From assembly GCF_022879595.1 (NCBI RefSeq), contig NZ_CP084268.1, positions 1-64,000 on the forward strand: 64,000 bases of DNA, read 5' to 3'. Shown here piece after piece: positions 31,864 to 61,276 of this stretch. The notes under the pieces are model-generated. The model saw nothing but the letters and a program-made list of their open reading frames with translations, made no database searches and was not told the DNA's origin. How positions within the stretch are numbered: position 1 is the stretch's first letter; each line of letters begins with the position of its first letter. Made by a program: the position numbers and the translations under genes. This DNA comes from Caballeronia sp. Lep1P3. Lineage in GTDB: Bacteria > Pseudomonadota > Gammaproteobacteria > Burkholderiales > Burkholderiaceae.

Positions 31864-31876
31864 GTGGACGCGCGCC

Positions 31877-34812: not shown

Positions 34813-34878
34813 CGATGTGACACGACTCAAGCGGCGGCCGCGCGCCGCCGCGTTGCCCACTCACAGGAGGGCTGACAG

Positions 34879-40144: not shown

Positions 40145-40968
40145 CGGCGACGGACATCGCGGCGCTGCATCTGCCCGCCATCGGCCTCGGGACGTGGCAG
40201 TCGCAGCACGACGAAGGCGTGCGAGCCGTGCGCACGGCGATCGAGAAGGGGTATCGCCATATCGACACGGCAGCGCGTTACCAGAACGAAGCGGCGGTCG
40301 GCGAGGGCATCCGCGAAAGCGGCATTGCGCGCGACGACGTGTTCGTCACGACGAAGGTCTGGTGGACCGAACTGCACGCGAGCGCGTTTCGCCGCTCGGT
40401 CGAACGCAGTCTCTCGGAACTGAAGTTCGACTACGTCGATTTGCTGCTGATCCATTGGCCCAATCCCGACGTGCCGCTCGAAGAAACGCTCGGCGCATTG
40501 GCCGACGCGCACCGGCAAGGCCTCGCGCGCAAGATCGGCGTCTCGAATTTTCCGGTGGCGTGGCTGGAGCGCGCGGTGGCGTTGTCGCCGGTGCCGCTGT
40601 CGGTGAATCAGTGCGAGTATCACCCGTACCTGAATCAGCGCAAGGTGCTCGACGCCTGCGCGAAACACGGCCTGAGCTTCGTCGCGCACACGCCGCTCGG
40701 CAGCGGCCGGCTGATCGGCGATCCGATGATCGCGGGTATCGCCGCACGCCACGGCAAGACGAGCGCGCAAGTGCTGCTGCGCTGGCTCGTGCAGCAGCCG
40801 GGCGTCGCCGCGCTGCCGAAGTCCACGCATGCACGGCGCATCGGCGAGAACATCGACGTGTTCGACTTCGCGCTCGATGACGGCGAAATGCGCCGCATCG
40901 CCGCGCTCGCGACGCCCGGCGGACGCATCAGCAAGGTTGCCTGGGCGCCCGAGTGGGATACGGCGTAG
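40141..40968 (+). CDS. Aldo/keto reductase (AKR3/5-like)
   Basis: A 275-residue NADPH-dependent TIM-barrel reductase: GLGTWQ near residue 16, catalytic D/Y/K/H in DTAARYQNE, TKVWW and LLIHWPNPD, and the C-terminal cofactor loop LPKSTHARRIGENI. The start overlaps the aminotransferase stop. It would reduce the aldehyde or ketone made by the aminotransferase to an alcohol, or take part in a reversible detoxification. Confidence 0.9.
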   Translation: MTATDIAALHLPAIGLGTWQSQHDEGVRAVRTAIEKGYRHIDTAARYQNEAAVGEGIRESGIARDDVFVTTKVWWTELHASAFRRSVERSLSELKFDYVDLLLIHWPNPDVPLEETLGALADAHRQGLARKIGVSNFPVAWLERAVALSPVPLSVNQCEYHPYLNQRKVLDACAKHGLSFVAHTPLGSGRLIGDPMIAGIAARHGKTSAQVLLRWLVQQPGVAALPKSTHARRIGENIDVFDFALDDGEMRRIAALATPGGRISKVAWAPEWDTA

Positions 40969-41023: not shown

Positions 41024-43033
41024 TCAAGCCGCGCGCCGGTTCTCCAGCATCTGCGGATACTGCTTCGACACTTCCGCGAAAATCTCGCGCACGGCGCCCG
41101 CGCCTTCCGTGAGCTTGCCCGCGGTCTCCCATGCGTCGAGTGCGTCGAAGATCTTGTGCTTCAGGAAGTGACGCCAGATGACCGGCGCCGACGCGAGAAT
41201 CTCCGTGAGCACGGCATAGCGCGCAGGCGTCCAGCGCGCTTCGTAGGCCGTGCGCGCCTCGCCGTAGTCGAAATGCGCGTGCGGCGTGCGTGGCGCGTCG
41301 ACGGCGAGTTCGGCGCGGCGCCGCGCGGTCGCGTGTTCGTCGGCTTCGCCGGAGCGCACGACGACGCCGTAGAGCGCGAGCGCCTCCGCTTCGGTCAGAT
41401 AGCCGCGCTTCACATCGGTGGCGACGTGCTGCGGATCGCGCTCGCAGGGGTCGCCGTAGCCGCCGCCGCCGCAACCTTCGAGGCGGATCACATCGCCGGG
41501 GCCGCACACGACGAGATCGGAGACGCCGAGGTTTTCTTCGCCCGCCGTGCCCGGATTACGTGTGAAGCGCGAATTCGCGCCCGCCTTGCCGCCCAGCACG
41601 CCCCACGACGCGAAGCGCGAGCGGTCGCGGTTGCGCGCCGTCACGAGCGTGCCCGGCGAGAACACGCGGAATTCCATGACGGTCCCGAGGCCGCCGCGAT
41701 ACCGTCCCGCCCCCGCGCTGCCCGGCACGAGTCCGTATTTGAGGATGCGGATGGGCACTTCCGCCTCGTTGATCTCGACCGGCGTGTTGCGCAGGAACGC
41801 GTTGTTCGCGCCCGATGCGTCCGAGCCGTCGCCGCTCGCCATGCCGCCCGCGCCGCCGCCGACCGGACCGATCGCCGCGATGACGGTCTGCCCGTCGCTG
41901 CCCACGGTGCGCACGTTGAGAATCGACATGCCGCCGGCGGGGCAGGCGGGCAAACGGTCCGGACACACCATCGAAAACGCGCCGAAGGTGACCATCTGCG
42001 CGACCTTGCAGGTGAGACTGCGCATGCCGACGGCGGCGGGCGGCACGCAATTCATGATCGTGCCTTCGGGCAGGATGCAGCGCGCGACCTTCAGCATCCC
42101 CGCGTTCAACAGCAGATCGGGATGCAGCGAGTACAGCACGTAGTTCAGGCCGACGAGCGCGAGGACGTGACGCTCCTTGCCGCCGGTCGGCATGTTGAGC
42201 GACGAGTTCAGTTGCGGATCGCTGCCCGTGAAGTCGAGCACGAGGGAGTCGCCCTGCACCTTCAGGTTCAACGCAACGCGAAGCGGCTTGCCGTTGGGCG
42301 AATCTTCATCGGCGAACTCGCAGAAGAAGTATTCGCCGTCGGGCATCGCAGAGACGAGCGCGCGCGCCTGTTCTTCCGAATAGTCGATCATCGCGTGCAT
42401 GCCGGCCTTGAATTCGTCGATGCCGAAGCGCTCGATGATCTCCAGCACGCGCCGCTCGCCGGTCATCAGCATGGCGATCTGCGCCTTCAGATCGCCGCGA
42501 TTCTGCTCGGGCGCGCGCACGTTGATGGCCATGTGGTCGAGCAGCGTTTCGTCCAGCACGCCGGCGCGCACGATTTTCGTGGGCGACCAGCGGATGCCTT
42601 CCTGATAGATCTCGGTGAGCGTGCGCGACAGCGAAGCGGGCACCGCGCCGCCCATGTCCGTGTTGTGGATGTGGCCGCCCACGTAGCAGACGATCTCGCC
42701 TTCGTGGAAGACCGGCTTCCACATCATCACGTCCGGCGTGTGCGTGGCGACGTAGCCGCTGTACGCGTCGTTGGTCATGCCGATATCGCCGGGCTCGTAA
42801 TGATCGATCGCATCGATCACGGAACGGAAGTCGAGCCCCGGATACCACGTCGCGCCGAGCGTTTTCGGCGACGCGAACGTGAGACCCTCGGGCGTCATGA
42901 TGGTGCAGGAGAAGTCCTCGGTTTCCTTCACGAAGGCCGAATGGGCGGTGCGCATGAGCGTATGAGCCATGCTTTCGGCCGCCGCCACGCAGTAGTTCGA
43001 GAAAATCTGAAGGACGGATCGGTTGAACGTCAT
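41024..43033 (-). CDS. hyuB: Hydantoinase/oxoprolinase beta subunit (HyuB family)
   Basis: A 669-residue HyuB protein from ATG 43033, with GAGGAA upstream on the minus strand. Family features: KETEDFSCTIMTPEG, DIGMTNDAYSGYVATHTPDV, GHIHNTDMGG, then NMPTGGKERHVLAL and the C-terminal GGGGYGDP. HyuA/HyuB pairs hydrolyse N-carbamyl or cyclic amides (N-methylhydantoin, 5-oxoproline) or carboxylate ketones, with ATP. It follows HyuA by 20 bases on the same strand. The specific substrate is unknown. Confidence 0.9.
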   Translation of the reverse strand: MTFNRSVLQIFSNYCVAAAESMAHTLMRTAHSAFVKETEDFSCTIMTPEGLTFASPKTLGATWYPGLDFRSVIDAIDHYEPGDIGMTNDAYSGYVATHTPDVMMWKPVFHEGEIVCYVGGHIHNTDMGGAVPASLSRTLTEIYQEGIRWSPTKIVRAGVLDETLLDHMAINVRAPEQNRGDLKAQIAMLMTGERRVLEIIERFGIDEFKAGMHAMIDYSEEQARALVSAMPDGEYFFCEFADEDSPNGKPLRVALNLKVQGDSLVLDFTGSDPQLNSSLNMPTGGKERHVLALVGLNYVLYSLHPDLLLNAGMLKVARCILPEGTIMNCVPPAAVGMRSLTCKVAQMVTFGAFSMVCPDRLPACPAGGMSILNVRTVGSDGQTVIAAIGPVGGGAGGMASGDGSDASGANNAFLRNTPVEINEAEVPIRILKYGLVPGSAGAGRYRGGLGTVMEFRVFSPGTLVTARNRDRSRFASWGVLGGKAGANSRFTRNPGTAGEENLGVSDLVVCGPGDVIRLEGCGGGGYGDPCERDPQHVATDVKRGYLTEAEALALYGVVVRSGEADEHATARRRAELAVDAPRTPHAHFDYGEARTAYEARWTPARYAVLTEILASAPVIWRHFLKHKIFDALDAWETAGKLTEGAGAVREIFAEVSKQYPQMLENRRAA

Positions 43034-43053
43034 GTCGGGTTCCTCGTGTGTTT

Positions 43054-45093
43054 TCACTGCGCGCTGAGCAGCAGATTGCCGTATTCGTCGACGACGCAGG
43101 CGAAGCCCGGCAGCACGCACGTCGTCGTGTCGTCCTGCGTGACGATTGCCGGACCCTCGAAACGATGCCCTGCGAGCAGCGACGTGCGCCGGTACATCGG
43201 CACCGTGCGCCATGCGTCGTCCAGATAGACGTCGATCATCGCTTCCACTCGCGGCTCGCCTTCGCCGCGCGCGATCTTCGGCATCTCGGGCTTGGGCGTC
43301 GGCAGGCTGATGACCAGCCGCAGCGCCACGACCTGCACCGCCGATCCCGCATCGCTGTGGCCGTAGAGACGCTGATGCTCGCGATGGAACGCATCGGCGA
43401 TGCGCGCCATGTCCCGCTCGCGGATGGCTCGCGCGTCGAGCGGCGTATCGACCTCGAACGACTGCCCGCGATAACGCATGTCCGCCGAAATCGTCATTTC
43501 AGCGCCCGCATCCGTTCCGGTCTCGCCGACGATCCACTCCCGCGCCTGGCGCTCCAGCATCGCGAGATCGCCGGCCAGCTTGCCAAGGGACTCGGCGTCG
43601 AGCGGGTAGTAGGTCGTGCGCACGAAGTCGTTCTTGGTGTCCGCGATGAGGCCGCCCAGCGCGCTCAGCACGCCCGGCGTCGTCGGCACGACGATATGGC
43701 GCATGTTCAGCGCGCGCGCGAGAAAGCCGCCGAGCATCGGGCCGGCGCCGCCGAACGGCATGAGCCAGAACGCGCGCGGATCGATGCCGAAGCGCGACAC
43801 GATGCGGCTCACGCCGCCGTACATGCCCGACACCGATACGTCGATGATCGCCGCCGCCGTCCGATGCACGTCCATGCCGAGACGTTGCGCGAGCGGCTCG
43901 ATGGCGCGGCGGCTCGCGTCGACATCGACCTGGACCGCGTTGTAGCCGAGCGATGCGCGCCCGAGCACGCCGATGACCGCGAACGCATCGGTGATGGTCG
44001 GGCGGGTGCCGCCGCGTCCGTAGCAGACCGGTCCCGGATTGGAGCCGGCGCTTTCGGGGCCGACCTTCAGCACGCCGAAATCGTCGACCCAGGCGATGGA
44101 GCCGCCGCCGTCGCCGATCGACGATACGGAGACCGACGGGATATGAATCTGGAAGTCGCCGATATATTCGCCGGTCGCGTATTGCGGCTTGCCGTCGACG
44201 ATCAGCGCGACATCCGCCGTGGTGCCGCCGATGTCGAGGCTCATGCAGTCCTTGATGCTGCACATGTTCGCAAGGTACGACGCGCCGATCACGCCCGCCG
44301 CCGTGCCCGAGAGGATCATCTGCACGCAATTGCTCTTGCCGTTCTCGGCGCTCATCACGCCGCCGTTCGACTTCGTGACCTTCAGGTCCGCGCCGACGCC
44401 GCTCTCGGCGAGCGCGGCCTGCAGGCGTGTCAGATATTGCGACACGCGCGGCTGCACGTATCCGCCGATGGCCGCCGTCACCGTGCGCTCGTATTCGCGG
44501 ATGATCGGCCACACTTCATGCGAGCACGACACGAAAAAGCCCGGCGCCGCCTTTTCGATGATCGCCTTCACCTGCAATTCGTGCGCAGGATTGCGGTATG
44601 CATGCAGCAGCGAAACCACCACGCCTTGGCACTGCGCGGCCTTGAGCGCATCGAGCGCGGCGAGGACGCTGGATTCATCGATTGGCGCTTCCTCGATGCC
44701 GTCGGGGCGCATGCGGCCATCGACGCCGAACACGCGATCGCGCGTGATGAGCGGCTCCGGACGGCGCGACATCAGGTGGTACATGTCGGGGATCTTCAAC
44801 CGCGCGATGTCGAGCACGTCCTCGAAGTTGCGCGTAGTGATGAGCGCGAGCCGCAGGCCCTTGCGCTGCACGACCGCGTTCACGCCGACCGTCGTGCCGT
44901 GCGTGAAATACACGACGTCGCGCGGATCGATGCCGAAGCGTTCGCGCAAGCCCTGCATGCCGTCGATGACTTCGCTGCCGGGGCTATCCGGCCGCGAAAA
45001 CACCTTGAGCGTGCGGGTGGTCCGCGTCTCGTCGTCCAGCACCGCGAAGTCGGCGAACGATCCGCCGATGTCCACTCCGATTCTCAGCCCCAT
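43054..45093 (-). CDS. hyuA: Hydantoinase/oxoprolinase alpha subunit (HyuA family)
   Basis: A 679-residue HyuA protein from ATG 45093, with AGGGA upstream. The N-terminal phosphate-binding segment reads GLRIGVDIGGSFADFAVLDD (usual form DVGGTFTD), followed by HGTTVGVNAVVQRKG, SLDIGGTTADVALIVDG and PFGGAGPMLGGFLA. It carries the ATP-binding fold of the pair. It is divergent from an IclR regulator, with a palindrome between. The group is probably induced by a cyclic amide or a related amino-acid derivative. Confidence 0.9.
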   Translation of the reverse strand: MGLRIGVDIGGSFADFAVLDDETRTTRTLKVFSRPDSPGSEVIDGMQGLRERFGIDPRDVVYFTHGTTVGVNAVVQRKGLRLALITTRNFEDVLDIARLKIPDMYHLMSRRPEPLITRDRVFGVDGRMRPDGIEEAPIDESSVLAALDALKAAQCQGVVVSLLHAYRNPAHELQVKAIIEKAAPGFFVSCSHEVWPIIREYERTVTAAIGGYVQPRVSQYLTRLQAALAESGVGADLKVTKSNGGVMSAENGKSNCVQMILSGTAAGVIGASYLANMCSIKDCMSLDIGGTTADVALIVDGKPQYATGEYIGDFQIHIPSVSVSSIGDGGGSIAWVDDFGVLKVGPESAGSNPGPVCYGRGGTRPTITDAFAVIGVLGRASLGYNAVQVDVDASRRAIEPLAQRLGMDVHRTAAAIIDVSVSGMYGGVSRIVSRFGIDPRAFWLMPFGGAGPMLGGFLARALNMRHIVVPTTPGVLSALGGLIADTKNDFVRTTYYPLDAESLGKLAGDLAMLERQAREWIVGETGTDAGAEMTISADMRYRGQSFEVDTPLDARAIRERDMARIADAFHREHQRLYGHSDAGSAVQVVALRLVISLPTPKPEMPKIARGEGEPRVEAMIDVYLDDAWRTVPMYRRTSLLAGHRFEGPAIVTQDDTTTCVLPGFACVVDEYGNLLLSAQ

Positions 45094-45160
45094 TGCAATG
45101 TCCCTGTCTGGTTTGTAGCCCGTGTGTTGCCCGTTGCCCTTGATGTGTGCCACAATACGG

Positions 45161-45179
45161 CACGACGTTTAACATCGTG
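45161..45179. promoter_or_regulatory. Palindromic operator between hyuA and the IclR gene
   Basis: CACGACGTTTAACATCGTG: arms CACGA/TCGTG and GTT/AAC are symmetric about one central base, with two non-matching positions. It sits in the 129-base divergent region 45094-45222, as expected for an autoregulating IclR repressor or activator of hyuAB. Confidence 0.6.
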
Positions 45180-45222
45180 GTACAACTTAGCATGCCGGTC
45201 CGCCGGCGTGCAAGACATCAAA

Positions 45223-45969
45223 ATGAACAGTCTTCTGAAAAGCATCGAAATCATCGAGGCGGTGTCGGAGAATCAGCCGGTCGGCGTGGGCGAACTTGCG
45301 AAGCTGCTCGACATGCCGAAATCCAGCGTGCAGCGCGTGCTCATGACGTTTCAGGAAGCGGGCTGGCTGCGTCAGGCGGGCGGCGAACTCACGCGCTGGG
45401 AGATCAGCCCGCGTGTCATCGGCGTGCGTCCCAATGCGTTGAAGGGCGGCGCGCTGCAGAAAGCCGCGCGCGAACCGATGCAGGCGCTCTGCAACGCCGT
45501 GAACGAAACTGCGCATCTGTCGATTCCCGATGGCACGAACGCGATGGTTCTCGTCGAAGAAGTCGAGTGCAAGCAGTTCGTGCGCACCGCGTACAAGATC
45601 GGCGACGTATCGCCGTTCCACGCGACGGCCAACGGTCTCGCGTTGCTCGCGTTCATGAACGCGAGCCAGGTGGCGACCATCCTCAATCGCGATCTGAAGA
45701 AGTACGGCGACAAGACCATCAACGATCCCGCGCTGATCCGCGAGGAACTCGCGCGCATCCGCGAGCGCGGCTATTCGGTCAATTTCGGGCAATATCGTCA
45801 CGCCATTTACGCCATCGGCGCGCCGATTTTCGACAGCAGCGGCATTGCGGTGGCGAGCGTGTGCATCTCGATGCCGGAATCGCGTTTCGACGAAGGCCGC
45901 ATCGAGGAATGGGCGCGCGCGGTGACGGGCGCGGCGTCGCAGATCAGCCGCGGGCGCGCCGGCGCGTGA
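45223..45969 (+). CDS. IclR-family transcriptional regulator
   Basis: A 248-residue regulator starting MNSLLKSIEIIEAVSENQPV. The winged HTH spans about 1-62 (VGELAKLLDMPKSSVQRVLMT) and the IclR effector domain about 75-245 (HATANGLALLAFM, GAPIFDSSGIAVASVCISMP). It is divergent from hyuAB and is its probable regulator through the palindrome at 45161-45179. It converges on a LysR gene. Confidence 0.9.
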   Translation: MNSLLKSIEIIEAVSENQPVGVGELAKLLDMPKSSVQRVLMTFQEAGWLRQAGGELTRWEISPRVIGVRPNALKGGALQKAAREPMQALCNAVNETAHLSIPDGTNAMVLVEEVECKQFVRTAYKIGDVSPFHATANGLALLAFMNASQVATILNRDLKKYGDKTINDPALIREELARIRERGYSVNFGQYRHAIYAIGAPIFDSSGIAVASVCISMPESRFDEGRIEEWARAVTGAASQISRGRAGA

Positions 45970-46106
45970 GGCTCACTGCGCCGATACGGGGCGCTCGGCA
46001 AGGATCGACATGAATCTCCGGCGCAGAAGAGCGTCACGTTTTCGGCCGGATGCCGATGTGCGCCGTCGAATACGCATTGAATCGACGGCAATGCCGTTTC
46101 GAAGCG

Positions 46107-46991
46107 TCAGTCTGTGCTTTCGCGGAACGCCTCGCCGAACGCCTTCGCGAGCATGTTCATCGGGAGATTCAGCGGATAGACGAGGTAGGTCGAAAACTCG
46201 ATGCGCGGCGCGAACGGCAAGATCGCGAGCTGCCCGGCGTATTCGCGCGCGACGAGCGGATTCGATACGCTCACGCCCATGCCGCGCGACACCATCCGGC
46301 AGATGGCCGCCGCGAAGTGCGATTCATACGCGAGAATGCGCTTCTCCTCGCCGTCGATCTGGCACGCATCGTCGATGCGTTTTCTCATGACGTCGCTCGA
46401 TTTCAGCGAGAGGAAGCGCTCGCCCGCGAGGTCTTGCGGCGTGATGGCGTCGCGGCGGCTCGCGAGCCGGTGATCCGGCGGCGTGATGCACACGCCTCGG
46501 CTTCTGCATGCTTCTTCGTGCGCGACGCTCGTGGCATTGAAAATCTCCGACGCGATTCCGATGTCCGCGTAGCCCGTGGCGAGCCATTGGCAGACCGTCA
46601 GCGAATCCGCGACGTGGAGCGTCACATCGACGTCCGGATAACGCTGCGCGAAGAAATGAATGGCGTCCGGCACCGCGACGATCGCCATGGACGGCACCGC
46701 CGCCACGCGCAACCGCCCGCTGCCGCGCTTGCGGATGACCTCCGCCTTTTCCTCCAGACCTCGCAGGCTTGCGAACGTGTGTTCGACATCGCGAAAGAAG
46801 ACCTGACCTTCGAGCGTCGGCATGAGCTTTCCGATCTGACGCTCGAACAGCTTGATGCCGATGCGCCGCTCGAGTTGTCCGATCACCCGGCTGATGTTCG
46901 ACTGCGACGTATGCAGGTCCTTGGCCGCCTGCGTCATCGAACCCGACAGCATCACCGCGCGGAACGCCTGCACTTCGCGAAAATTGAGCAT
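46107..46991 (-). CDS. LysR-family transcriptional regulator
   Basis: A 294-residue LysR from ATG 46991 (MLNFREVQAFRAVML); longer in-frame starts would add an untypical N-terminus. HTH about 1-62 (MTQAAKDLHTSQSNISRVIGQLE), effector domain about 88-290. It is divergent from the HAD/oxidase/ABC module at 47175. The promoter element beginning 47003 lies immediately upstream and recurs at 54484 before another oxidase gene, so this regulator probably serves both. Confidence 0.9.
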   Translation of the reverse strand: MLNFREVQAFRAVMLSGSMTQAAKDLHTSQSNISRVIGQLERRIGIKLFERQIGKLMPTLEGQVFFRDVEHTFASLRGLEEKAEVIRKRGSGRLRVAAVPSMAIVAVPDAIHFFAQRYPDVDVTLHVADSLTVCQWLATGYADIGIASEIFNATSVAHEEACRSRGVCITPPDHRLASRRDAITPQDLAGERFLSLKSSDVMRKRIDDACQIDGEEKRILAYESHFAAAICRMVSRGMGVSVSNPLVAREYAGQLAILPFAPRIEFSTYLVYPLNLPMNMLAKAFGEAFRESTD

Positions 46992-47002
46992 CGGAAGGGG
47001 GT

Positions 47003-47068
47003 ATATCAAAAAGGCATGGCCCCTGATTATATGCGCATTTGTCAAAGAAAAATGACGTTCATACACTC
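47003..47068 (+). promoter_or_regulatory. Conserved LysR-type promoter element (copy 1)
   Basis: ATATCA (47003-47008), GCATG (47014-47018), CGCATTTGTCAA (47034-47045) and TACACTC (47062-47068) occur in the same order and with identical spacing at 54484-54549. TTGTCA and TACACT give a sigma70-like -35/-10 pair with an 18-base spacer; ATATCA...GCATG lies upstream, where a LysR protein would bind. Here it drives the HAD/oxidase/ABC module. Confidence 0.65.
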
Positions 47069-47174
47069 GTCTCAAGCTGATCCATCGCTGCGGCGAAGCC
47101 CATGAGAGAGTCTTCTCCGGCGCCTGCGCAAGCGGCTTTCACCCATCATGCTGCGCCACTCACGAGGAGACTCG

Positions 47175-47843
47175 ATGCCGCTGTTCAGACCCAAATTCAT
47201 TACCTTCGATTGCTACGGCACGCTCATCTACTTCGAAATGGCGAACGCGGCGCGCGCGCTCTATGAGGACCGCGTGAATGCGGAGCAGATGCGCGCGTTC
47301 ACCGATGCATTCGCGGCGTACCGGCTCGACGAAGTGCTGGGCGCATGGAAGCCTTACGAGCAAGTCGTCGATAGCGCGATCCGCCGCACCTGCAAGCGCT
47401 TCGGCACGCCGTATCGCGAAGGCGATGGCCGCGCCATCTACGATCAGGTTCCGACCTGGGGCCCGCATCCCGATACGACCGCCGGCCTCGCGAAGGTTGC
47501 GAAGGAATTCCCGCTCGTCGCGCTGACCAATGCGTCGAACGCGCAGATTCCGCACAACATCGAAAGGATCGGCGTGCCGTTCCATGCCGTCTTCACGGCG
47601 GAAGAGGCGCAGGCCTACAAGCCGCAGATGAAGGCGTTCGAGTTCATGCTCGATCAATTGAACTGCGGCCCGGAAGACATCCTGCACGTATCGTCGAGCT
47701 TTCGTTACGACCTGATGACGGCGCACGATCTCGGCATCAGGAACAAGGTGTTCGTCGCGCGCGGGCACGAGCCGGCGAACCCGTATTACGGCTACACGGA
47801 AATCAGGGATATCGGCGGCCTCGCGGCCGTCGTCGGACTATGA
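47175..47843 (+). CDS. HAD-superfamily hydrolase, type II haloacid dehalogenase-like (copy 2)
   Basis: A 222-residue HAD protein from ATG 47175 with GAGGAGA upstream: FDCYGTL nucleophile motif, LTNAS motif II, YKP lysine and VSSSFRYDLMTA at motif IV. It is the same length as the copy at 27369 and similar throughout (shared YRLDEVLGAWKPY, HVSSSFRYDLMTA, HEPxNPYYG). It lacks the classical dehalogenase SSNAWD segment. It is coupled by ATGA to the PuuB-like oxidase. Confidence 0.87.
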   Translation: MPLFRPKFITFDCYGTLIYFEMANAARALYEDRVNAEQMRAFTDAFAAYRLDEVLGAWKPYEQVVDSAIRRTCKRFGTPYREGDGRAIYDQVPTWGPHPDTTAGLAKVAKEFPLVALTNASNAQIPHNIERIGVPFHAVFTAEEAQAYKPQMKAFEFMLDQLNCGPEDILHVSSSFRYDLMTAHDLGIRNKVFVARGHEPANPYYGYTEIRDIGGLAAVVGL

Positions 47844-49114
47844 AACTCGAACCGTACTGGCTCGGCACTGCGCCCGCTTTCACGGCCGGCGCGACCGGAC
47901 CGCTGCCCGCACGCGCCGATGTGGTCGTCGTCGGTGGCGGATTCACGGGGCTGTCGGCCGCGTTGTCGCTCGCGCGCAAGGGCGTGGACGTGGTGCTGCT
48001 CGAAGCGGGGCGCATTCACGGCGAAGCGTCGGGCCGCAACGGGGGGCATTGCAGTCCGGGCACCGCGCAAGGACTCGCGGATCTGATCGACCGATACGGC
48101 CTCGACACGGCGAAGCATCACTATCAGGTCTATACCGATGCGGTCGATTACGTCGAGCGTCTCATCGCCGATGAAAAGATCGATCGCGATTTCACGCGGC
48201 GCGGCAAGATCAAGCTCGCGAGCAAGCCGACGCACCTCGCCGGCATGCAGCGCAGCTACGACGCATTGCGCAGGCATCTCGATGCACCCGTCGAATGGCT
48301 CTCGGCATTGGATGTGAAGCGTGAGATCGCATCGGACGCGTTTCACGGCGGCCTGTTCGATCCACGCGGCGGCCAGATGCACATGGGCAAGTTCGGCACC
48401 GGTCTCGCGACGACGGCGGCGCGCTACGGCGCGCGCATCTTCGAACACGCGGCCGTGACGCAACTGACGAACATCGGCGGCGACCGTCACCGCGTGGCGA
48501 CGGCGAAGGGCACGATCGAAGCAGGACGCGTGCTGCTCGCGACGGGATGCTCGAATCACGGTCCGTTTCGCTGGTGGCAGCGGCGCATCGTGCCGGTGGG
48601 CAGCTTCGTCATCGTCACCGAGCCGATAGGCGCGTTGCTGGACCGCGCGTTGCCGCAGCGTCGCAATTACGTGACGAGCCTCAACTTCGGGAACTACTTT
48701 CGCGTGACGGCGGACGATCGCCTCGTCTGGGGCGGCCGGGCGCGGTTCGCGCGCAGCAATCCCGCGTCGGATCGGAAGAGCGGGAGGATCCTGAAGGCAT
48801 CGCTCGACGCGCTGCTGCCGAGCCTGAAAGACGCGCGCATCGACTATTGCTGGGGCGGGCTCGTCGAGGCGACCGCGGACCGGCTGCCCTCGGCGGGCAA
48901 GCACGAAGGGCTGTATTACTCGATGGCCTACAGCGGACACGGCACGCAGATGTCCACCTATATGGGCGATGTGATGGCCGACATCGTGATGGGCGGCGCG
49001 CGCGCCAATCCGTGGGCGCGCACGCAATGGAAAGCACTGCCGGGCTATGCCGGACGCGAATGGTTTCTGCCGCTCGTGGGCGCGTATTTCCGGTTCAAGG
49101 ACGCGGTGTCCTGA
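47840..49114 (+). CDS. FAD-dependent oxidoreductase, gamma-glutamylputrescine oxidase-like (copy 2)
   Basis: A 424-residue DAO-fold flavoprotein: MKLEPYWLGTAPAF start, Rossmann GGGFTG, ASGRNGGHCSPGTAQ, IDYCWGGLVEATADRLPS and YSGHGTQMSTYMG. It is a full-length paralog of 28087-29364. The start overlaps the HAD stop, so HAD and oxidase are translationally coupled, which argues for a shared pathway step. Two dipeptide-type permeases follow at 27 bases. Confidence 0.9.
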   Translation: MKLEPYWLGTAPAFTAGATGPLPARADVVVVGGGFTGLSAALSLARKGVDVVLLEAGRIHGEASGRNGGHCSPGTAQGLADLIDRYGLDTAKHHYQVYTDAVDYVERLIADEKIDRDFTRRGKIKLASKPTHLAGMQRSYDALRRHLDAPVEWLSALDVKREIASDAFHGGLFDPRGGQMHMGKFGTGLATTAARYGARIFEHAAVTQLTNIGGDRHRVATAKGTIEAGRVLLATGCSNHGPFRWWQRRIVPVGSFVIVTEPIGALLDRALPQRRNYVTSLNFGNYFRVTADDRLVWGGRARFARSNPASDRKSGRILKASLDALLPSLKDARIDYCWGGLVEATADRLPSAGKHEGLYYSMAYSGHGTQMSTYMGDVMADIVMGGARANPWARTQWKALPGYAGREWFLPLVGAYFRFKDAVS

Positions 49115-49141
49115 GCGCAGGGTGACAGGCGAGGAAAGCTC

Positions 49142-50092
49142 ATGAATCATGTCGTGATGCGCATGGTGGCCCGGCGCTTCGCCATCGGCGCGCTGACGCT
49201 CTTGCTCGTATCGGCGCTCGTGTTTTTCATGGCGAGCCTGCTGCCGGGCGATGCGGCGCAAATGGCGCTCGGGCAATACGCGACGCCCGAAACCGTCGCG
49301 ATGCTGCGCAAGCAGTTGGGCCTCGACGAACCGCTCGTGCTGCGCTTCTTCACATGGCTCGGCGGCCTGCTGAGCGGCAACTTCGGCCTCTCGTATGCCG
49401 CGAACGTGCCGGTCAGGAGCATCGTGATGACGCGCATTCCCAACACGATGATGCTCGCGGGCGCGGCGACGGCGGCATCGGTGCCGATCGCGCTCGTGCT
49501 CGGCATCGTCGCGGCGATGGCGCGCGGCTCGCTGCTCGATCGCGTGATCGGCGTGCTGACGATGTCGGTCGTCGCGGTGCCGGAGTTCCTGCTCGCCACG
49601 CTCGCCGTGCTGCTCTTCGCGGTGAAGCTGCACTGGGTGTCGGCGGTATCGGTGAATGCGGACACGTCGAGCTTCGGCGCGTTCCTCAAGTCGTATAGCC
49701 TGCCGGTGCTCGTGCTGTGCTGCGTCGTCGTCGCGCAGATGGCGCGCATGACGCGCGCGGCGCTGATTAACCAGCTCGACGCGCCTTACGCCGAAATGAC
49801 CGTGCTCAAAGGCCTGCATCCGGCGCGCACGGTGCTGCGTCATGCGCTGCCCAACGCGGTGGGGCCGATCGTCAACGCAATGGCGCTCAGTCTTTCGTAT
49901 TTGCTGGGCGGCGTCATCATCGTCGAGGCGATCTTCTCGTATCCGGGCCTCGCGAGCACGCTCGTCGACGCCGTGAGCAATCGCGATCTGCCCATCGTGC
50001 AGTTTTGCGTGCTCTTCTTCAGCACCTGCTATCTGCTTCTTCTTCTCGTCGCCGATGTCGTGACGATCGTCTTCAATCCCAGGCTGCGCTGA
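49142..50092 (+). CDS. Dipeptide-type ABC transporter permease 1 (DppB family, second system)
   Basis: A 316-residue permease with six transmembrane segments, LLPGDAAQMALGQYATPETVA and the EAA-like loop MTVLKGLHPARTVLRHALPNAV. It is a paralog of 34879-35832. It follows the oxidase directly and is followed by permease 2 after two bases. Confidence 0.93.
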   Translation: MNHVVMRMVARRFAIGALTLLLVSALVFFMASLLPGDAAQMALGQYATPETVAMLRKQLGLDEPLVLRFFTWLGGLLSGNFGLSYAANVPVRSIVMTRIPNTMMLAGAATAASVPIALVLGIVAAMARGSLLDRVIGVLTMSVVAVPEFLLATLAVLLFAVKLHWVSAVSVNADTSSFGAFLKSYSLPVLVLCCVVVAQMARMTRAALINQLDAPYAEMTVLKGLHPARTVLRHALPNAVGPIVNAMALSLSYLLGGVIIVEAIFSYPGLASTLVDAVSNRDLPIVQFCVLFFSTCYLLLLLVADVVTIVFNPRLR

Positions 50093-50094
50093 CC

Positions 50095-50949
50095 ATGAAA
50101 CACGTCCTCTCTTCGCCGCGCGCAGTGGGGCGCTTCTTCGTCTCGCTGCCGGTGCTCGGGCGCATCGGGCTATGCGTGTCGATCGTCTGGGTCTTCGTCG
50201 CGATGTTCGGGTCGCTGATCGCGCCTTACGGCATGATGGACATGAGCGGCGGCAAGGTCTTCGCGTCGAGCAGTCTCGCGTATCCGCTCGGCACGGATTT
50301 TCTCGGTCGCGATCTGTTGAGCCGCATTCTCTTCGGCGCACGCTATTCGATCGGCCTCGCGCTCGCGGCCACGCTGATTGCGAGCGTGAGCGGCACGTTC
50401 CTCGCGCTCGTGTCGACTGTCATCGGCGGCTGGTTCGACGAAATCGTCTGCCGCATCGTGGATGCGCTGCTCGTCACGCCGAGCAAGATTCTCGCGCTGC
50501 TGGTGATTGCGATCTTCGGCTCGGACCTGAACGTGCTCGTGCTGATGGCGGGCGTCATCTACATGCCCGGCGCGTTTCGCATCGCGCATTCGCAGGCCGT
50601 CGGACTGAACGCGATGGAATACGTCACCGTCGCGCGTCTGAACGGCGAAAGCACGTTGCATATCGCCTGCCGCGAGATATTGCCGAACATGATCCATCCG
50701 ATGATGGCCGATTTCGGCCTGCGCTTCGTCTATAACGTGCTGATGCTGAGCGGCCTCAGTTTTCTCGGCCTCGGCGTGCAGCCGCCGTATGCGGACTGGG
50801 GTTCGCTCGTGCGCGAGAACCTGTCGGGCTTGTCCTCGGGCGCGGCGGCGGTCATCATGCCCGCGCTCGCCATCGCGACGCTGACCATCGGCGTGAATCT
50901 GCTGATCGACAGTCTCGCCGCGCGCGGGCATACGCATGCGAAGGGGTGA
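50095..50949 (+). CDS. Dipeptide-type ABC transporter permease 2 (DppC family, second system)
   Basis: A 284-residue permease starting MKHVLSSPRAVGRFF, with YPLGTDFLGRDLLSRILFGAR and SGLSFLGLGVQPPYADWGSLV. It is shorter than its paralog at 35829 because it lacks the Pro/Arg-rich N-terminal extension. The ATPase starts 3 bases later. Confidence 0.93.
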   Translation: MKHVLSSPRAVGRFFVSLPVLGRIGLCVSIVWVFVAMFGSLIAPYGMMDMSGGKVFASSSLAYPLGTDFLGRDLLSRILFGARYSIGLALAATLIASVSGTFLALVSTVIGGWFDEIVCRIVDALLVTPSKILALLVIAIFGSDLNVLVLMAGVIYMPGAFRIAHSQAVGLNAMEYVTVARLNGESTLHIACREILPNMIHPMMADFGLRFVYNVLMLSGLSFLGLGVQPPYADWGSLVRENLSGLSSGAAAVIMPALAIATLTIGVNLLIDSLAARGHTHAKG

Positions 50950-50952
50950 AAC

Positions 50953-52599
50953 ATGAGCCGCACTCTCGTGAACGTGTCGGACCTGCGTATCGTCGCGCAG
51001 GGCGACGGCGGCAAGGAAACGCCCATCGTCGAGAACGTGAGCTTTTCGATCGCGCGAGGCGAAGTGCTTGCGCTGATCGGCGAATCCGGCTCGGGCAAGA
51101 CGACCATCGCGCTCTCGTTGCTCGGCTACGCGCGGCGCGGTTGCCGCATCGCCGGCGGACGCGTCGAGGTCGGCGGCACCGATGTCCTCGCCGCGTCGCC
51201 GTCGGAACTGCGCGGCTTGCGCGGAAGACGCGTCGCCTATGTCGCGCAGAGCGCGTCGGCGTCGTTCAATCCGGCGCTGCGCATCCTCGATCAGGTGATC
51301 GAAGGCGTGTGCGTGCGCCGGATCATGAGCCGCAAGGCGGCGCGCGCCAAGGCCGTCGCGCTGTTTCGCGCGCTCGCGCTGCCGTCGCCGGAGAGCATCG
51401 GCGAGCGTTATCCGCATCAGGTGTCGGGCGGCCAGTTGCAGCGTCTGATGGCGGCGATGGCATTGATGTCCGATCCCGAAGTCGTCGTGTTCGACGAACC
51501 GACCACGGCCCTCGACGTGACGACGCAAATCGAAGTGCTGCGTGCGTTCAAGCGGGCGATCGCGCAGTTCCAGATCAGCGCGGTCTACGTGTCGCACGAT
51601 CTAGCGGTCGTCGCGCAGATTGCCGATCGCGTGCTCGTCTTGCGTCATGGAACGGTTCAGGAGGAGGGCGCGCTCGGACAGATCATCGGCGCGCCGTCGC
51701 ATCCCTATACGCAGAGCCTGATCGCGGCTGCCGCGCCCGTGCCGCGCCTCACGCAACGCGACGCCGAGCACGCCTGCACGCGGCCTGCCCTGCTCGAGAT
51801 CGACAATCTCACCGCGGGTTACGGCGAACGCGATCGTGCGGGCATGCCGGCAGTGCGCGTGCTCGACGGCGTGAATCTGATCCTGCGGCGCGGTACGACG
51901 CTCGGCGTGATCGGCGAATCGGGATCGGGCAAGTCGACGCTGGCCCACGTGATCGCCGGATTGCTCGCGCCCGCGAAGGGCAGCATCCGCTTCATGGGCA
52001 AGCCGCTCGCGGGCCTGCATGCCGATCGCGACCGCGATCTTTACCGGCGCATCCAGTTGGTGTTCCAGAACGCGGACAAGGTGCTGAATCCGTCGCAGGA
52101 CGTGGGCGCGATTCTCGCGCGGCCGCTGAAGCTGTTCGACCGATGCGCGTCGAGCGAGATTCCGGCGCGCGTCGCACGTCTGCTCGATCTCGTGAAGCTG
52201 CCGGCGTCCGTCGCGAGGCGCCGTCCGGGCGAATTGTCGGGCGGGCAAAAGCAGCGCATCAATTTGGCGCGCGCGCTCGCGGCCGAACCCGAATTGATCA
52301 TCTGCGACGAGGTCACGTCCGCGCTCGATACCGTGGTGGGCGCGGCCATTCTCGATCTGCTCGTCGAACTGCGCCGCGAGCTGGACATGTCGTACCTGTT
52401 CATCAGCCACGACCTGTCGACGGTGCGCACGACTTGCGACGATATCGCCGTGCTCTTCAAGGGCCAAAAGGTCGATGCATGCGACCGCGATGCGTTGCTG
52501 AGCCAGCCGCGTCATCCCTATACGGAGAAGCTGATCGGATCGGTGCCGGAAATGCGCGTCGACTGGCTGGAGGAGACGGCGCTGCGCATGAAGGCTTGA
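50953..52599 (+). CDS. Fused dipeptide-type ABC transporter ATPase (DppD-DppF, second system)
   Basis: A 548-residue two-domain ATPase: Walker A GESGSGKTT 43-51 and GESGSGKST 321-329; signatures VSGGQLQR and LSGGQKQR; Walker B VVFDEP and LIICDE. It is about 90 residues shorter than the paralog at 36821, mainly because it lacks the Cys-containing C-terminal tail. The substrate-binding protein of the system is not next in line but is encoded convergently at 52742-54268. Confidence 0.92.
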   Translation: MSRTLVNVSDLRIVAQGDGGKETPIVENVSFSIARGEVLALIGESGSGKTTIALSLLGYARRGCRIAGGRVEVGGTDVLAASPSELRGLRGRRVAYVAQSASASFNPALRILDQVIEGVCVRRIMSRKAARAKAVALFRALALPSPESIGERYPHQVSGGQLQRLMAAMALMSDPEVVVFDEPTTALDVTTQIEVLRAFKRAIAQFQISAVYVSHDLAVVAQIADRVLVLRHGTVQEEGALGQIIGAPSHPYTQSLIAAAAPVPRLTQRDAEHACTRPALLEIDNLTAGYGERDRAGMPAVRVLDGVNLILRRGTTLGVIGESGSGKSTLAHVIAGLLAPAKGSIRFMGKPLAGLHADRDRDLYRRIQLVFQNADKVLNPSQDVGAILARPLKLFDRCASSEIPARVARLLDLVKLPASVARRRPGELSGGQKQRINLARALAAEPELIICDEVTSALDTVVGAAILDLLVELRRELDMSYLFISHDLSTVRTTCDDIAVLFKGQKVDACDRDALLSQPRHPYTEKLIGSVPEMRVDWLEETALRMKA

Positions 52600-52692
52600 C
52601 GATACGATGCAACGCTTGCCGGCGATTCGTTGCGTCGCGATTGGCAGGCCGCCTTGCTTCTTTCGCCGGTCCGCGCGATGTTCGACGGCGAA

Positions 52693-52715
52693 AACCCACG
52701 TTTGGAGCGTGGGTT
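52693..52715. terminator. Hairpin between convergent ATPase and binding-protein genes
   Basis: AACCCACG and CGTGGGTT form a perfect 8-bp stem around loop TTTGGAG in the 142-base gap between convergent stops. Confidence 0.6.
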
Positions 52716-52741
52716 GGGCCGCACCGATGGATCGCCTGGAT

Positions 52742-54268
52742 TCAAGTCCGCCACACCGCCTCGGCGAACCGGTATCCCATGTTCATGCCCGACGGATTCG
52801 ACTTGTAGCCGCGCACCTTCTTCGACACACCGTCGAGGATCACGTCGAACACGGGAATGACCGTGCCCGCGTTGTCATGCACGAGCGTCTGCATGTCGCC
52901 GTAAATGGCCTTGCGCTTTTTGAAGTCGCCTTCCGCGCGCGCGGCGTCCAGCAACTGATCGAGCTTCGGGTCTTTCCAGCGCGCCTCGTTCGTCGGCGAC
53001 TTCGAGGTATAGAACAGCTCGAAGATCATGCCCACGTTCGGACGGTTCGATATCGAGCCATACGTGATAGGGCGCTTGGTCCAGTAGTTCGACCAGTAGC
53101 CGTCGGTAGGAACCTGCTTGACGACGAAGTTGAAGCCCGCCTGCGCGCCGAAACTCTGCATGAACTGCGCGCCTTCCACCGACGACGCAATGCCCGGCTG
53201 ACAAAAGATCTCGATCGACTGACCCGCGAGGCCGCTCTTCTTGAGATGGAACTTCGCCTTGTCGATATCGAAGGAGCGTTGCGGCAGCCCTTCGAGATAG
53301 TAAGGGTCCCACGGCGCCACGGGATGATCGTTCGCGACGACGCCGTAGGTCTGCATGACGTCGTCGACCATGCGCTTGCGATCCTGCAGATAGCGCACCG
53401 CCGACACGAAATCGGCGTTGCCGGCAATCGGGCTGTCCTGCCGCAAGATCAGGTCCGTGTAGATGCCGAGCTTGTTGAGCACGAGCTGCACGTTCTGATT
53501 GCCCTTCACCTGCGCGGCATAACGATGATCGACCAGCGAGCAGATATCGACGTCGCCCGCGAGCACCGCATTCACGCGCGCGGCGTTGTCCGGCACGCCG
53601 ATGATCTCCACCGTGTCGAGGTAGGGCAGGCCGGGCTTCCAGTAGTTCGGGTTTCGCTTCGCCGCGAACTTGGCTCCAGGCGTGAACGTGTCGATGACGA
53701 ACGGACCGGTACCGACGGGCTTCGAGAAGTCCTTCGCGCCGTTACGCACGATCAGGAAGTAGCTGCTGCCGAGCACCGACGGAAGATCGAAGTTCGGCTT
53801 GTCGATGACGAGCGTCGCTTCGTACTTGCCGACGGCCTTGATTTCTTTGAAGCCGCTTGCAATCGCGAAGGCTTTCGACGTCGTCGCCGGGTCCTTGTGC
53901 CGTGCGAGCGAGTAGACGACGTCATCAGCCGTGAGTTCGGCGCCGTCGTGGAAATGCACGCCTTTCCTGATCGCGATGCGCCATGTGAGGCCATCGGCGC
54001 TTTCGAGCTTGTCGGCGAGCGCGAGCGAAGGCGTCAGCGAATCGTTGAACTCCATCAGCGCGTTGAAGACGCAGAACTGCTTGGTCCAGTCGCCCGAATG
54101 CGCGCCTTTGGCCGGGTCGAGCGTGTCGGATACCGAGCCGTTCTGAACCGCCATGCGGACGTTGCCGCCGCGCCTGGGCGCTTCGTCGGCCATCGCGTAA
54201 GTGGACAGGCCGCTCGCCATGCCCGCCGCGGCGCATATCGAGAGGAAATCTCTTCGGCTAGTTTTCAT
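52742..54268 (-). CDS. Dipeptide-type ABC transporter substrate-binding protein (family 5), Tat-exported
   Basis: A 508-residue family-5 binding protein from ATG 54268, with AGGGGA upstream. Tat signal MKTSRRDFLSICAAAGMASG, cleavage after TYAMA near 26. Mature signatures: LDPAKGAHSG, WRIAIRKGVHFHDGAELTADDVVYSL and GTGPFVIDTF. It is a paralog of 33232-34812. It is transcribed toward its permease/ATPase genes, whereas in the other system it leads the operon, so the module was rearranged. It is divergent from the oxidase at 54585. Confidence 0.92.
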   Translation of the reverse strand: MKTSRRDFLSICAAAGMASGLSTYAMADEAPRRGGNVRMAVQNGSVSDTLDPAKGAHSGDWTKQFCVFNALMEFNDSLTPSLALADKLESADGLTWRIAIRKGVHFHDGAELTADDVVYSLARHKDPATTSKAFAIASGFKEIKAVGKYEATLVIDKPNFDLPSVLGSSYFLIVRNGAKDFSKPVGTGPFVIDTFTPGAKFAAKRNPNYWKPGLPYLDTVEIIGVPDNAARVNAVLAGDVDICSLVDHRYAAQVKGNQNVQLVLNKLGIYTDLILRQDSPIAGNADFVSAVRYLQDRKRMVDDVMQTYGVVANDHPVAPWDPYYLEGLPQRSFDIDKAKFHLKKSGLAGQSIEIFCQPGIASSVEGAQFMQSFGAQAGFNFVVKQVPTDGYWSNYWTKRPITYGSISNRPNVGMIFELFYTSKSPTNEARWKDPKLDQLLDAARAEGDFKKRKAIYGDMQTLVHDNAGTVIPVFDVILDGVSKKVRGYKSNPSGMNMGYRFAEAVWRT

Positions 54269-54584
54269 CGGTGTCCCCTGGTGTTGGAGTGATCGGCGTG
54301 GCAAGAGCGGATGCGGCGTTCACGTTCATCGAAACGCGGACATGCCCGCCTGACGGACCATTCTAGGAACGGATGCGCCGCATGTTCAAATTCGCCATTT
54401 TTGACCCCCCATCCGTTTTTGATATGCGGACGCGATGGACGGCCCGCCGTTTGGTCGAGGCTTGCGCGATGTATCGCGGGTCCATATCAGGAAAGCATGC
54501 CCTCCCAATACCTTCGCATTTGTCAACGCGGGGATCGCTTCTTACACTCCGGCTCACCTGGCTCCTCTCTGGAACGACGCGAAC
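54269..54584. other. Divergent control region between binding protein and oxidase genes
   Basis: 316 bases. The right part is the conserved promoter element (54484-54549). The middle (54388-54425) is AT-rich (CCATTTTTGACCCCCCATCCGTTTTTGATATG) and could carry the minus-strand promoter of the binding protein. Confidence 0.55.
54484..54549 (+). promoter_or_regulatory. Conserved LysR-type promoter element (copy 2)
   Basis: ATATCA (54484), GCATG (54495), CGCATTTGTCAA (54515) and TACACTC (54543) occur with the same offsets (0, 11, 31, 59) as the element at 47003. TTGTCA/TACACT with an 18-base spacer would start transcription about 54555, 30 bases before the GTG start of the oxidase. Confidence 0.65.
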
Positions 54585-55916
54585 GTGAGACATCCACTGC
54601 TGCACATCGAGACCGATGCGACCTTGCCCACGCATGTGGATGTCGCGGTGATCGGCGGCGGCGCCGCTGGCGTCGCGACGGCGTATGAACTCAATCGGCT
54701 GGGCAAGCGTGTCGCCGTGTTCGAGAAGGGACGCATTGCCGCCGAACAAAGCAGCAGAAACTGGGGCTGGTGCCGCACGCTGGGCCGCGATCTGCGCGAA
54801 CTCGGCATGGCGAAGCTGAGCGTGCAGCGCTGGTCGGAGTTGTCCTCCGAGATCGGCGCCGATGTGGGATTCCGCGAGACCGGCATCACCTTCGTCACGC
54901 GCAGCGAGGAGGAGCTTGCGGGCTGGCAGGACTGGTTTGCCTTCGCGAGGCGTTCGGGCGTCGCGGCGCAAATGCTTTCGCGAGAACAGGCGAACGCGCT
55001 CTATTCGGGCCACGGCGCGCCGTGGATCGGTGGCGTGCGCACGTTCCACGACGGCTACGCCGATCCCGCCTGCGCCATTCCGCTGCTCGCTCGTCATGCG
55101 CGCGCGCAAGGCGTGACGATTCTTCAGCGCTGCGCGGTCAACGATCTGTACATCGAAGCAGGGCGGCTGGCGGGGATCGAGACCGAACGTGGACGGGTAC
55201 GCGCCGATGCGGTCGTCATCGCGGCCGGAGCGTGGTCGTCGCTCTTCTGTCTCAAGCAGAAAGTGGTGCTGCCGGTGTTGAACGTGCATTCGTCAGCATC
55301 GAAGTCGAAGGGCGACATCCGGCTCTCCTTCGAAGGGCCGCTCAAAGCGCCTGAGTTTTCATTGCGCGAACGGGCGGACGGCGGCTACACGCTCGCGAAG
55401 AGCGGGCGCGGCACTGTCCATGTCGTGCCGAACAGCCTGCGCTACGCGAACCGCTTCAAGGGACTCTATGCGAGCCGCCGGGCGAGCATCAAGGTCAAGT
55501 TCGGCGCAGAGTTCTTCCGCCAGCTCTGGGACGAGTTCGGCTACTTGCATCTGGGCCGCTCGCCGTTCGAACGCACGCGCATCCTCGATCCCGAGCCGGA
55601 CATTTCGCTTGTCCACTCGGCTTACGATGCCGCGGGCAAGATCTTTCCGCAGTTCGACCCCTCCGCCGTCGATCTCGCGTGGGGCGGTGCGATCGACAAC
55701 ACGCCGGATGGCATTCCCGTCGTATCCGAATGCAGCGGACAGCCTGGGCTCTACTTGTGCACCGGATTCAGCGGACACGGCTTCAGCAGTGCGCTCGGAG
55801 CAGGACGGATGCTTGCCGGACTGATCGCGACCGGGCGCATGACGCAGGAGTTGGAGCATTTGTCGCATAGCCGATTCCTGAACGGGCAGGCACTCGCGCC
55901 GAACATCATTTATTAG
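54585..55916 (+). CDS. FAD-dependent amine/amino-acid oxidoreductase (DAO fold, RNWGW subgroup)
   Basis: A 443-residue flavoprotein from GTG 54585 (VRHPLLHIETDATLP), with GGAACGA upstream. No ATG lies at a sensible position: the in-frame ATG at 54435 is upstream of the predicted promoter. Rossmann GGGAAG, the motif EQSSRNWGWCRTLGRD, and TGFSGHGFSSALGAG at the end place it with 20047 and 62707. The usual WVRQQNRD is WCRTLGRD here, so it is the divergent member. It shares a promoter element with the HAD/oxidase module at 47175, suggesting the same regulon. Confidence 0.87.
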   Translation: MRHPLLHIETDATLPTHVDVAVIGGGAAGVATAYELNRLGKRVAVFEKGRIAAEQSSRNWGWCRTLGRDLRELGMAKLSVQRWSELSSEIGADVGFRETGITFVTRSEEELAGWQDWFAFARRSGVAAQMLSREQANALYSGHGAPWIGGVRTFHDGYADPACAIPLLARHARAQGVTILQRCAVNDLYIEAGRLAGIETERGRVRADAVVIAAGAWSSLFCLKQKVVLPVLNVHSSASKSKGDIRLSFEGPLKAPEFSLRERADGGYTLAKSGRGTVHVVPNSLRYANRFKGLYASRRASIKVKFGAEFFRQLWDEFGYLHLGRSPFERTRILDPEPDISLVHSAYDAAGKIFPQFDPSAVDLAWGGAIDNTPDGIPVVSECSGQPGLYLCTGFSGHGFSSALGAGRMLAGLIATGRMTQELEHLSHSRFLNGQALAPNIIY

Positions 55917-60170: not shown

Positions 60171-60200
60171 GTTTAACGGAAGATAAACGGACAGTTAAAC
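60171..60200. promoter_or_regulatory. GTTTAAC/GTTAAAC inverted repeat upstream of the D-serine dehydratase-like gene
   Basis: GTTTAAC (60171-60177) and GTTAAAC (60194-60200) are inverted copies 16 bases apart, framed by CCCG...CGGG. A minus-strand -10 TATAGT lies at 60150-60145. The right half overlaps the 3-prime end of the LysR gene. The same half-site type occurs at 61277-61297 before the tandem-GNAT gene. Confidence 0.55.
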
Positions 60201-61136
60201 GGGACTGAATCTCTGCGGGTGCCTCCACGGTGCCGGATCGAATGCGCGCTTCGCAGCTTCAAGGAAGATTCGTTGACGGTTCGTGATGGCATGCCGGGAT
60301 GGCAAGAGCGCCATGATCGGCGCGGGCTCCAGTCGCCACTCGGGGAGAAGCCGCACCAGCTTGCCTGCCGCAATGAGTCCCGCGGCGCTCCACTCAGAAC
60401 GCTCGATGATGCCCAAGCCGTCCGCGGCCCAGTCGCTTATAACGGTGCCGTCGTTCGAGGATAGCGACCCGGACAGCCTCACAGTGATGCCTTTGACGCC
60501 GGGTCTGCGGGCTTTTCCGTCCGGCATGAACCGTAGGCGGGTGACATCTTCGTCGTTCTCGCGCAGCGTCAGGCACTCGTAGCGCTGAAGATCGGTCGGA
60601 TGATCGAGTCGGTCCATCCGTCGCGCGAATTCAGGGCTTGCGCATAGAAAGCGCTCGTTTGGCGCCAGGAAATGGCCGACCCAGGACGACGATTTGGCTG
60701 TACCGATCGACAACACGACGTCAGCGCCCGACGCGGCTGAGAGAGGGCTCTCGGCCAGAACGAGCGACACCCCAAGGTTCGGATGCTGGAGATGCAGTTC
60801 TCGAACCAAGGGCGCTATGTGTGCCCGGCCAAAGCCGAACGGCGCGACGATACGCAAGTGGCCGCTTACGCTGCCTGACTGCTCCGCGACTCGAGTCGCA
60901 ATTGATTCGATCCTCTCGAGTATCTCGATCGATTCTTGCAGGAGCTTCACGCCCTCGTCGGTAAGTGTCACGCCACGCGCTTCACGAACGGCAAGTTGCA
61001 GCCCGAGTCGCTCTTCCAGTCGCTGCAGACGAACCGAGACGGCTGGAGGCGTCAGGTTCAGCACGCGTGCTGCGGCGGCGAGCGAGCGCGACCCGCCCAG
61101 CGCGCGAAACAACCGCATGTCCTCGAGTTCGATCAT
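60195..61136 (-). CDS. LysR-family transcriptional regulator
   Basis: A 313-residue LysR from ATG 61136 (MIELEDMRLFRALGG), with AAGGGCCC upstream. HTH about 3-62 (LAAAARVLNLTPPAVSVRLQRLEERLG), effector domain about 90-300. It is divergent from the tandem-GNAT/oxidase genes and tandem with the D-serine dehydratase-like gene. Related GTTTAAC-type inverted repeats flank the gene on both sides, so it probably controls both neighbours. Confidence 0.9.
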   Translation of the reverse strand: MIELEDMRLFRALGGSRSLAAAARVLNLTPPAVSVRLQRLEERLGLQLAVREARGVTLTDEGVKLLQESIEILERIESIATRVAEQSGSVSGHLRIVAPFGFGRAHIAPLVRELHLQHPNLGVSLVLAESPLSAASGADVVLSIGTAKSSSWVGHFLAPNERFLCASPEFARRMDRLDHPTDLQRYECLTLRENDEDVTRLRFMPDGKARRPGVKGITVRLSGSLSSNDGTVISDWAADGLGIIERSEWSAAGLIAAGKLVRLLPEWRLEPAPIMALLPSRHAITNRQRIFLEAAKRAFDPAPWRHPQRFSPV

Positions 61137-61276
61137 TAAAGGGCCCTTAAGCACATGTTCAGTCGTTATTAAACACGCCAGAATTCCTGGCCCTTATCGT
61201 ATTGCGATCCAGACAAGGTTGCCGTTACGCGGTCTCAGACGAGGCACGTCGATGATGCGGGCAAACGACGACTCAC

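Follow-up and report, generated by a model that had tools for sequence, protein, structure and literature searches.

Two different oxidase units in Caballeronia sp. Lep1P3 are preceded by stretches of promoter DNA in which the same short words stand at the same distances. This raises the question of whether the two units, and possibly further genes, answer to one regulator, and to which of those encoded nearby. The window referred to throughout is the whole stretch of DNA that was analysed, 64,000 nucleotides long (positions 1 to 64,000 of contig NZ_CP084268.1). We consider it very probable that the LysR-type regulator encoded at 46107–46991 controls three promoters, P1, P2 and P3, and that the repeated block is a LysR-type operator-promoter module, since the same predicted landing pad stands at nearly fixed spacing before all three promoters and has been kept in relatives. 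Judged by sequence comparison, the LysR regulon appears to be real and conserved and to include at least three promoters.

The uptake-and-oxidase cluster

The proposed regulator of P1–P3 (minus strand, 294 aa) carries both LysR-type domains, PF00126 (HTH_1) at 62 bits and PF03466 (LysR_substrate) at 135 bits, each above its cut-off; its start was placed at 46991 (MLNFREVQ), replacing the TTG start at 47075 of the mechanical ORF. Behind P1, on the plus strand, follow genes for a HAD type II hydrolase (47175–47843; TIGR01428 above cut-off), a DAO-family FAD oxidase (47840–49114; PF01266), an ABC permease of the Opp/Dpp type (49142–50092; PF00528, PF19300), a further ABC permease (50095–50949; PF00528) and a double ABC ATPase (50953–52599; PF00005 twice). 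This unit holds two permeases and a double ATPase without a binding-protein gene, so that a switch shared with P3, which faces the gene for an ABC solute-binding protein (52742–54268, minus strand; PF00496), would make sense. P2 precedes a second DAO-family FAD oxidase (RNWGW; 54585–55916, plus strand; PF01266), with a probable GTG start read from the sequence. The oxidases match several DAO families, all below cut-off, and the substrate could not be fixed from these matches.

Three promoter blocks with one layout

ATATCA, GCATG, CGCATTTGTCAA and TACACTC occur at offsets 0, 11, 31 and 59 alike in 47003–47068 (copy 1, P1) and 54484–54549 (copy 2, P2). An earlier note on this DNA had described these words and held that the bases between them differ, and both statements are borne out: all 30 motif positions agree, compared with 13 of 36 spacer positions, giving 43 identical positions of 66. 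The weight which that note put on the pair alone does not hold up, since the best 12-mer-seeded pair had 39–45 identical positions in 20 dinucleotide-shuffled windows and reached 43 in four of them. Within the window the likeness of copies 1 and 2 is therefore not significant by itself, and significance drawn from the pair alone was dropped. The two blocks do lie where they had been placed, but a third promoter before the binding-protein gene had been overlooked: a third copy runs on the minus strand from 54426 to 54360, back to back with copy 2 (the C of its CATATCA is 54426), and matches at 18 of 30 motif positions and 18 of 20 core positions.

ATATCA and GCATG, present as the note had said but read apart there, are on our reading the two arms of one putative LysR site, (C/T)AT-N11-ATG. 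It fits the T-N11-A form of LysR operators, as CAT-N11-ATG or, in P1, with TAT. Recognition sites are predicted at 47002–47018 (plus strand, TAT-N11-ATG; TATATCAAAAAGGCATG) for P1, at 54483–54499 (plus strand, CAT-N11-ATG; CATATCAGGAAAGCATG) for P2 and at 54410–54426 (minus strand, CAT-N11-ATG; CATATCAAAAACGGATG) for P3. Downstream lies a CGCATTTG element, fused to the -35 in P1 (47034–47067 from the element through the -10, plus strand) and found again in P2 (54515–54548, likewise, plus strand), with a CGAATTTG element in P3 (54360–54394, likewise, minus strand). The CGNATTTG element starts at offset 31, includes the first letters of the -35 hexamer and is kept at a conserved fixed distance, its CAT-like letters standing 21 bases, or two helical turns, from those of the second arm. 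No clear dyad is visible by eye in this element, which overlaps the -35, and the alignment, likewise judged by eye, gave no clear inverted repeat at the -35 element or at -33.

The sigma70-type hexamers that had been proposed are present, but their spacer is 17 bases (offsets 36–41 and 59–64) rather than 18: TTGTCA at 47039–47044 and TACACT at 47062–47067 in P1, TTGTCA at 54520–54525 and TACACT at 54543–54548 in P2. P3 has TTGAAC (54389–54384) and TAGAAT (54365–54360) with an 18-base spacer. A sigma70 scan (hexamers 16–18 bases apart) recovered exactly these hexamers together with one overlapping P3 variant, with 9 of 12 at each of the three predicted promoters, against shuffle means of 0.2 and 0.0 sites. 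Transcription would start near 47074, 54555 and 54353, respectively, which puts the centre of the recognition site 64 bases before the predicted TACACT-based start, and 65 at P3. The -10 stands at offset 59 in P1 and P2, as in the boxes P4 and P5 of relatives described below, and one base later in P3.

Uniqueness of the box

When the genome was scanned with the spaced motif, as the earlier note had proposed, the 20-base spaced core had three matches at no more than 3 mismatches in the 6.18 Mb, all in the cluster, and a backward control had none. Four sites in the window reach at least 15/20, compared with one in ten base shuffles together. Across six genomes (the own genome, G179, G254, G055, G195 and G797) the same threshold gave 20 matches and no control match; 18 lie in the cluster and two adjoin LysR paralogues of 47–49% identity (G179:C48 and G797:C2:379472). 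Of 398 family genomes, 139 had at least one match and 14 a control match. Among the matches listed, 30 loci (L006–L035) were fetched; a LysR of this branch adjoins 14 and is missing beside 16, one of which (L026) ends at a contig edge, so the 3-mismatch pattern also picks unrelated sites.

Only background scores (10–12/20) were found in the window before the paralogous HAD/DAO/ABC unit (three stretches within 25500–33240), DAO 19909, aminotransferase 38777 and FMN oxidoreductase 56312. The paralogous ALDH/HAD/DAO/transporter unit at 25798–38740 showed no box at the places tested.

Conservation in related species

Orthologues of the LysR (87–94% identical) were found in seven relatives, and a box adjoins the gene in all of them: Ca. 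Burkholderia verschuerenii (L036), P. heleia (L037), P. silvatlantica (L038), Burkholderia sp. H160 (L039), P. sp. UYCP14C (L040), P. nodosa (L041) and L086. The first six thus have the LysR-linked box in 6/6 and the back-to-back P2/P3 pair in 3/6 (L037, L038, L041), with the L036 contig ending before the expected place of the pair; the count for the pair is four of all seven, including one relative found after the consensus was built. Sites orthologous to that of P3 are present in L037, L038, L041 and L086. No phasing rule was seen for P2 and P3, whose distances are 57, 64, 78, 78 and 58 bases in the window, L041, L037, L038 and L086, respectively. The alignment comprised 20 sites, with the consensus taken from 16 after four L038 rows near-identical to L037 had been dropped; constancy is highest across most letters of CATATCA and ATTTG and in the second-arm AT.

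Relatives also carry boxes at further promoters. A fourth, P4, precedes an MmgE/PrpD gene in L036, L037, L038 and L041 (2, 5, 4 and 4 mismatches), the gene being typed in L041 only, with broken or short ORFs in L036 and L037, and a fifth, P5, precedes an SBP_3 gene in P. nodosa (L078). Six 5-mismatch matches within hyuA of L036–L041 were set aside as coding sequence; the true-looking P4 of L037 likewise stands at 5 mismatches. The held-out genome G797 (LysR 92% identical), found after the consensus was made, has P1, P2 and P3 at 0, 1 and 4 mismatches before the expected genes and a P4 box at 3 mismatches just downstream of LysR. Downstream of the LysR stop in the window, at about 46063–46092 (minus strand), CGTATTCGACGG resembles the P4 of relatives and could be a decayed fourth box; this candidate is weak, its alignment score being 26 where shuffles reached up to 24, and no PrpD gene is present there.

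Gene order varies around these boxes. Burkholderia sp. H160 is rearranged: the HAD, first oxidase and transporter genes are absent, and LysR is directly divergent from the copy-2 oxidase gene, with the LysR-linked box between them. P. sp. UYCP14C has the HAD, both oxidases, aminotransferase and AKR in one run behind the LysR-linked box. Behind P1, an ALDH gene comes first in L036, L037, L038, L041 and L086, and HAD comes first in L040 and in the window (where 47075–47174 precedes it). The aminotransferase and AKR genes (38777–40968) lie apart from the copy-2 oxidase in the window and downstream of that oxidase in L039, L040, L078 and L086. The hydantoinase A/B and IclR genes (41024–45969) are near LysR in all seven relative loci.

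Co-occurrence follows the same lines. Among 144 genomes (the genus of G254), LysR orthologues are present in four and orthologues of the binding protein in the same four, and among the 398 family genomes the copy-2 oxidase (DAO 54588) has orthologues in four, all with LysR, and LysR (at least 87%) is found in five, the fifth (G179) being without a DAO match. The cluster moves as a unit, and these figures therefore reflect linkage as much as function. The earlier suggestion that LysR would control copy 2 in trans gains support by comparison, from the arrangements in L039 and L040 and from this co-occurrence of the SBP and DAO genes. An order-wide search at E ≤ 1e-85 returned the window's own LysR alone (1 of 399 genomes), and a plasmid collection gave four records, all below 60% identity. 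One LysR (P0036), 70% identical, whose label names the fungus Colletotrichum chrysophilum as its source, is probably bacterial contamination.

Which regulator, and how the boxes arose

Could another regulator of the neighborhood bind the boxes, for example the IclR encoded at 45202–45969 or the LysR at 60195–61154? Several regulators are encoded in the window, and the IclR gene is linked to LysR in all seven relatives (51–70% identical). The box, however, has a LysR-type form and position, and its distribution among LysR relatives, which occur in 117 of 398 family genomes, points the same way. Of the best 30 loci of these relatives, five, counting the window, belong to the orthologous clade and 25 show 46–49% identity; in 25/25 of the latter the end of the LysR match and the best-scoring site (14–18/20) are 11–54 bases apart. 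A further LysR in the window (1509–2426), 36% identical to LysR 46107, has a 15/20 site at 2424, before a DAO gene, and in its clade a 14–16/20 site stands just upstream of LysR in 15/15 loci, window included. Similar sites are thus found just upstream of all 40 LysR genes scanned (25 + 15), and no homologue of this IclR was found in those loci, which reach 1.5 kb or the contig end. LysR 60195 is only 20% identical, and upstream of LysR 6451 and LysR 60195 the scores stay at background (12/20 and 11/20, respectively). The presence of the box beside LysR genes of this branch, with background beside those two, argues that it goes with the branch and not with the linked IclR, and we regard control by another regulator as improbable.

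The blocks might instead be recent copies of one promoter that are starting to diverge. Some boxes may have arisen from others, given that P2 and the SBP_3 box of P. nodosa have spacer letters in common (CCC.CCCAATACCTT), and downstream of copies 1 and 2 the flanks match at 24 of 60 positions, slightly above chance. Against this stand the dissimilar spacers and upstream flanks (13 of 60 identical), and the recurrence of the same positions at up to five promoters in eight genomes (the window, L036–L041 and L086) with spacers differing between promoters. This makes recent copying very unlikely and agrees with the earlier note, which had read the pattern as selection; an old duplication followed by selection is possible. 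A chance likeness of two unrelated promoters, for which the equally alike pairs in shuffled windows might speak, is scarcely credible given the third copy, the genome-wide uniqueness, the conservation and the held-out genome.

Proposed mechanism

From the sites, their geometry, conservation and co-occurrence we infer how control by LysR 46107–46991 might work. One LysR dimer would hold the CAT-N11-ATG site, centred at about -64, and the second dimer of a tetramer may contact the CGNATTTG element, which is fused to the -35 and lies two helical turns further downstream. Once a small effector is bound, presumably an imported amine or amino-acid-like compound, LysR would help RNA polymerase onto the sigma70-type promoter. 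It would act from beside P1 on the HAD, oxidase, permease and ATPase genes; the binding-protein gene behind P3 and the second oxidase gene behind P2, whose promoters stand back to back, would be reached in trans. A single signal would then complete the ABC transporter, with membrane and ATPase parts from P1 and the binding protein from P3, and supply both oxidases. Autorepression also seems likely, as 10 bases separate the beginning of P1 from the start codon of LysR.

A wider operator code

Three other LysR clades, at 36–49% identity, have sites of similar geometry, and the whole branch, this clade included, may have kept one operator-promoter code, approximately CATANCA-N5-nnATR-N15-CGNATTKG, in which the second element contains the -35 and a -10-like element stands at a nearly fixed distance. 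This suggestion is tentative, and we hold it with somewhat less than even confidence, for two reasons: in at least 11 of the 15 loci of the LysR 1509 clade, the apparent start codon of LysR coincides with the CAT arm, and those three letters may be conserved for that reason; and in a fourth clade (L030, L033, L034 and L035; about 37%), which adjoins DAO genes, the four loci were chosen by the box itself. The targets of the branch resemble genes for uptake and for DAO oxidases; in the four loci of the 46–49% clade that were inspected (L020, L047, L052 and L070) the divergent gene has the appearance of one for a periplasmic binding protein. A box of similar geometry, CATAACATTGGATTATAG...GGCATTTG, occupies 2424–2463 (plus strand) between LysR 1509–2426 and the DAO gene at 2542, and its CAT, too, falls on the apparent start codon of that LysR. 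Within the 46–49% clade, L047–L071 carry an element close to CGTATTGGACGATATG, with an inverted CATATC, which the present clade is without.

If the code is indeed shared, targets of the branch could be read from DNA alone, which would allow target prediction for related regulators across the Burkholderiaceae, and paralogues within one genome would either cross-talk or have to avoid it. For the cluster itself, unannotated genes are brought into one predicted response comprising two oxidases and a transporter whose binding protein is encoded apart from it; some relatives would add ALDH, PrpD, aminotransferase and AKR as well as a further binding protein. The regulon also offers a direct route to the substrate, as the compound that switches on P1–P3.

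Comparison with known systems

The best NCBIfam match of the regulator is PRK11013 (210 bits, below the 288-bit cut-off), which we take to be the LysR of E. coli, a protein whose target genes differ from those found here. The occQ operon of Agrobacterium, the target of OccR, serves to take up and oxidise a derivative of an amino acid. Among PDB entries OccR ranks second for our LysR, matching over the effector domain (5vvh, E 2.1e-15), although the two are only distantly related by sequence and three promoters are proposed here. The published account places a high-affinity inverted repeat of OccR at -64 from the target-gene start and another at -33 (PMC5002191); the site at -64 is the point of likeness, whereas at -33 we see no clear dyad by eye. 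ThnR is a single protein of the LysR type that serves several promoters, among them PB and PC, which are close and divergent, as proposed here; it differs in needing ThnY and in having site C at -75, compared with about -64 and -65 for the two sites of our pair (PMC4834489). A literature search turned up nothing that we recognised as this regulon or box. The principle is already known from such systems, and the gene set of the uptake-and-oxidase cluster is newly described here.
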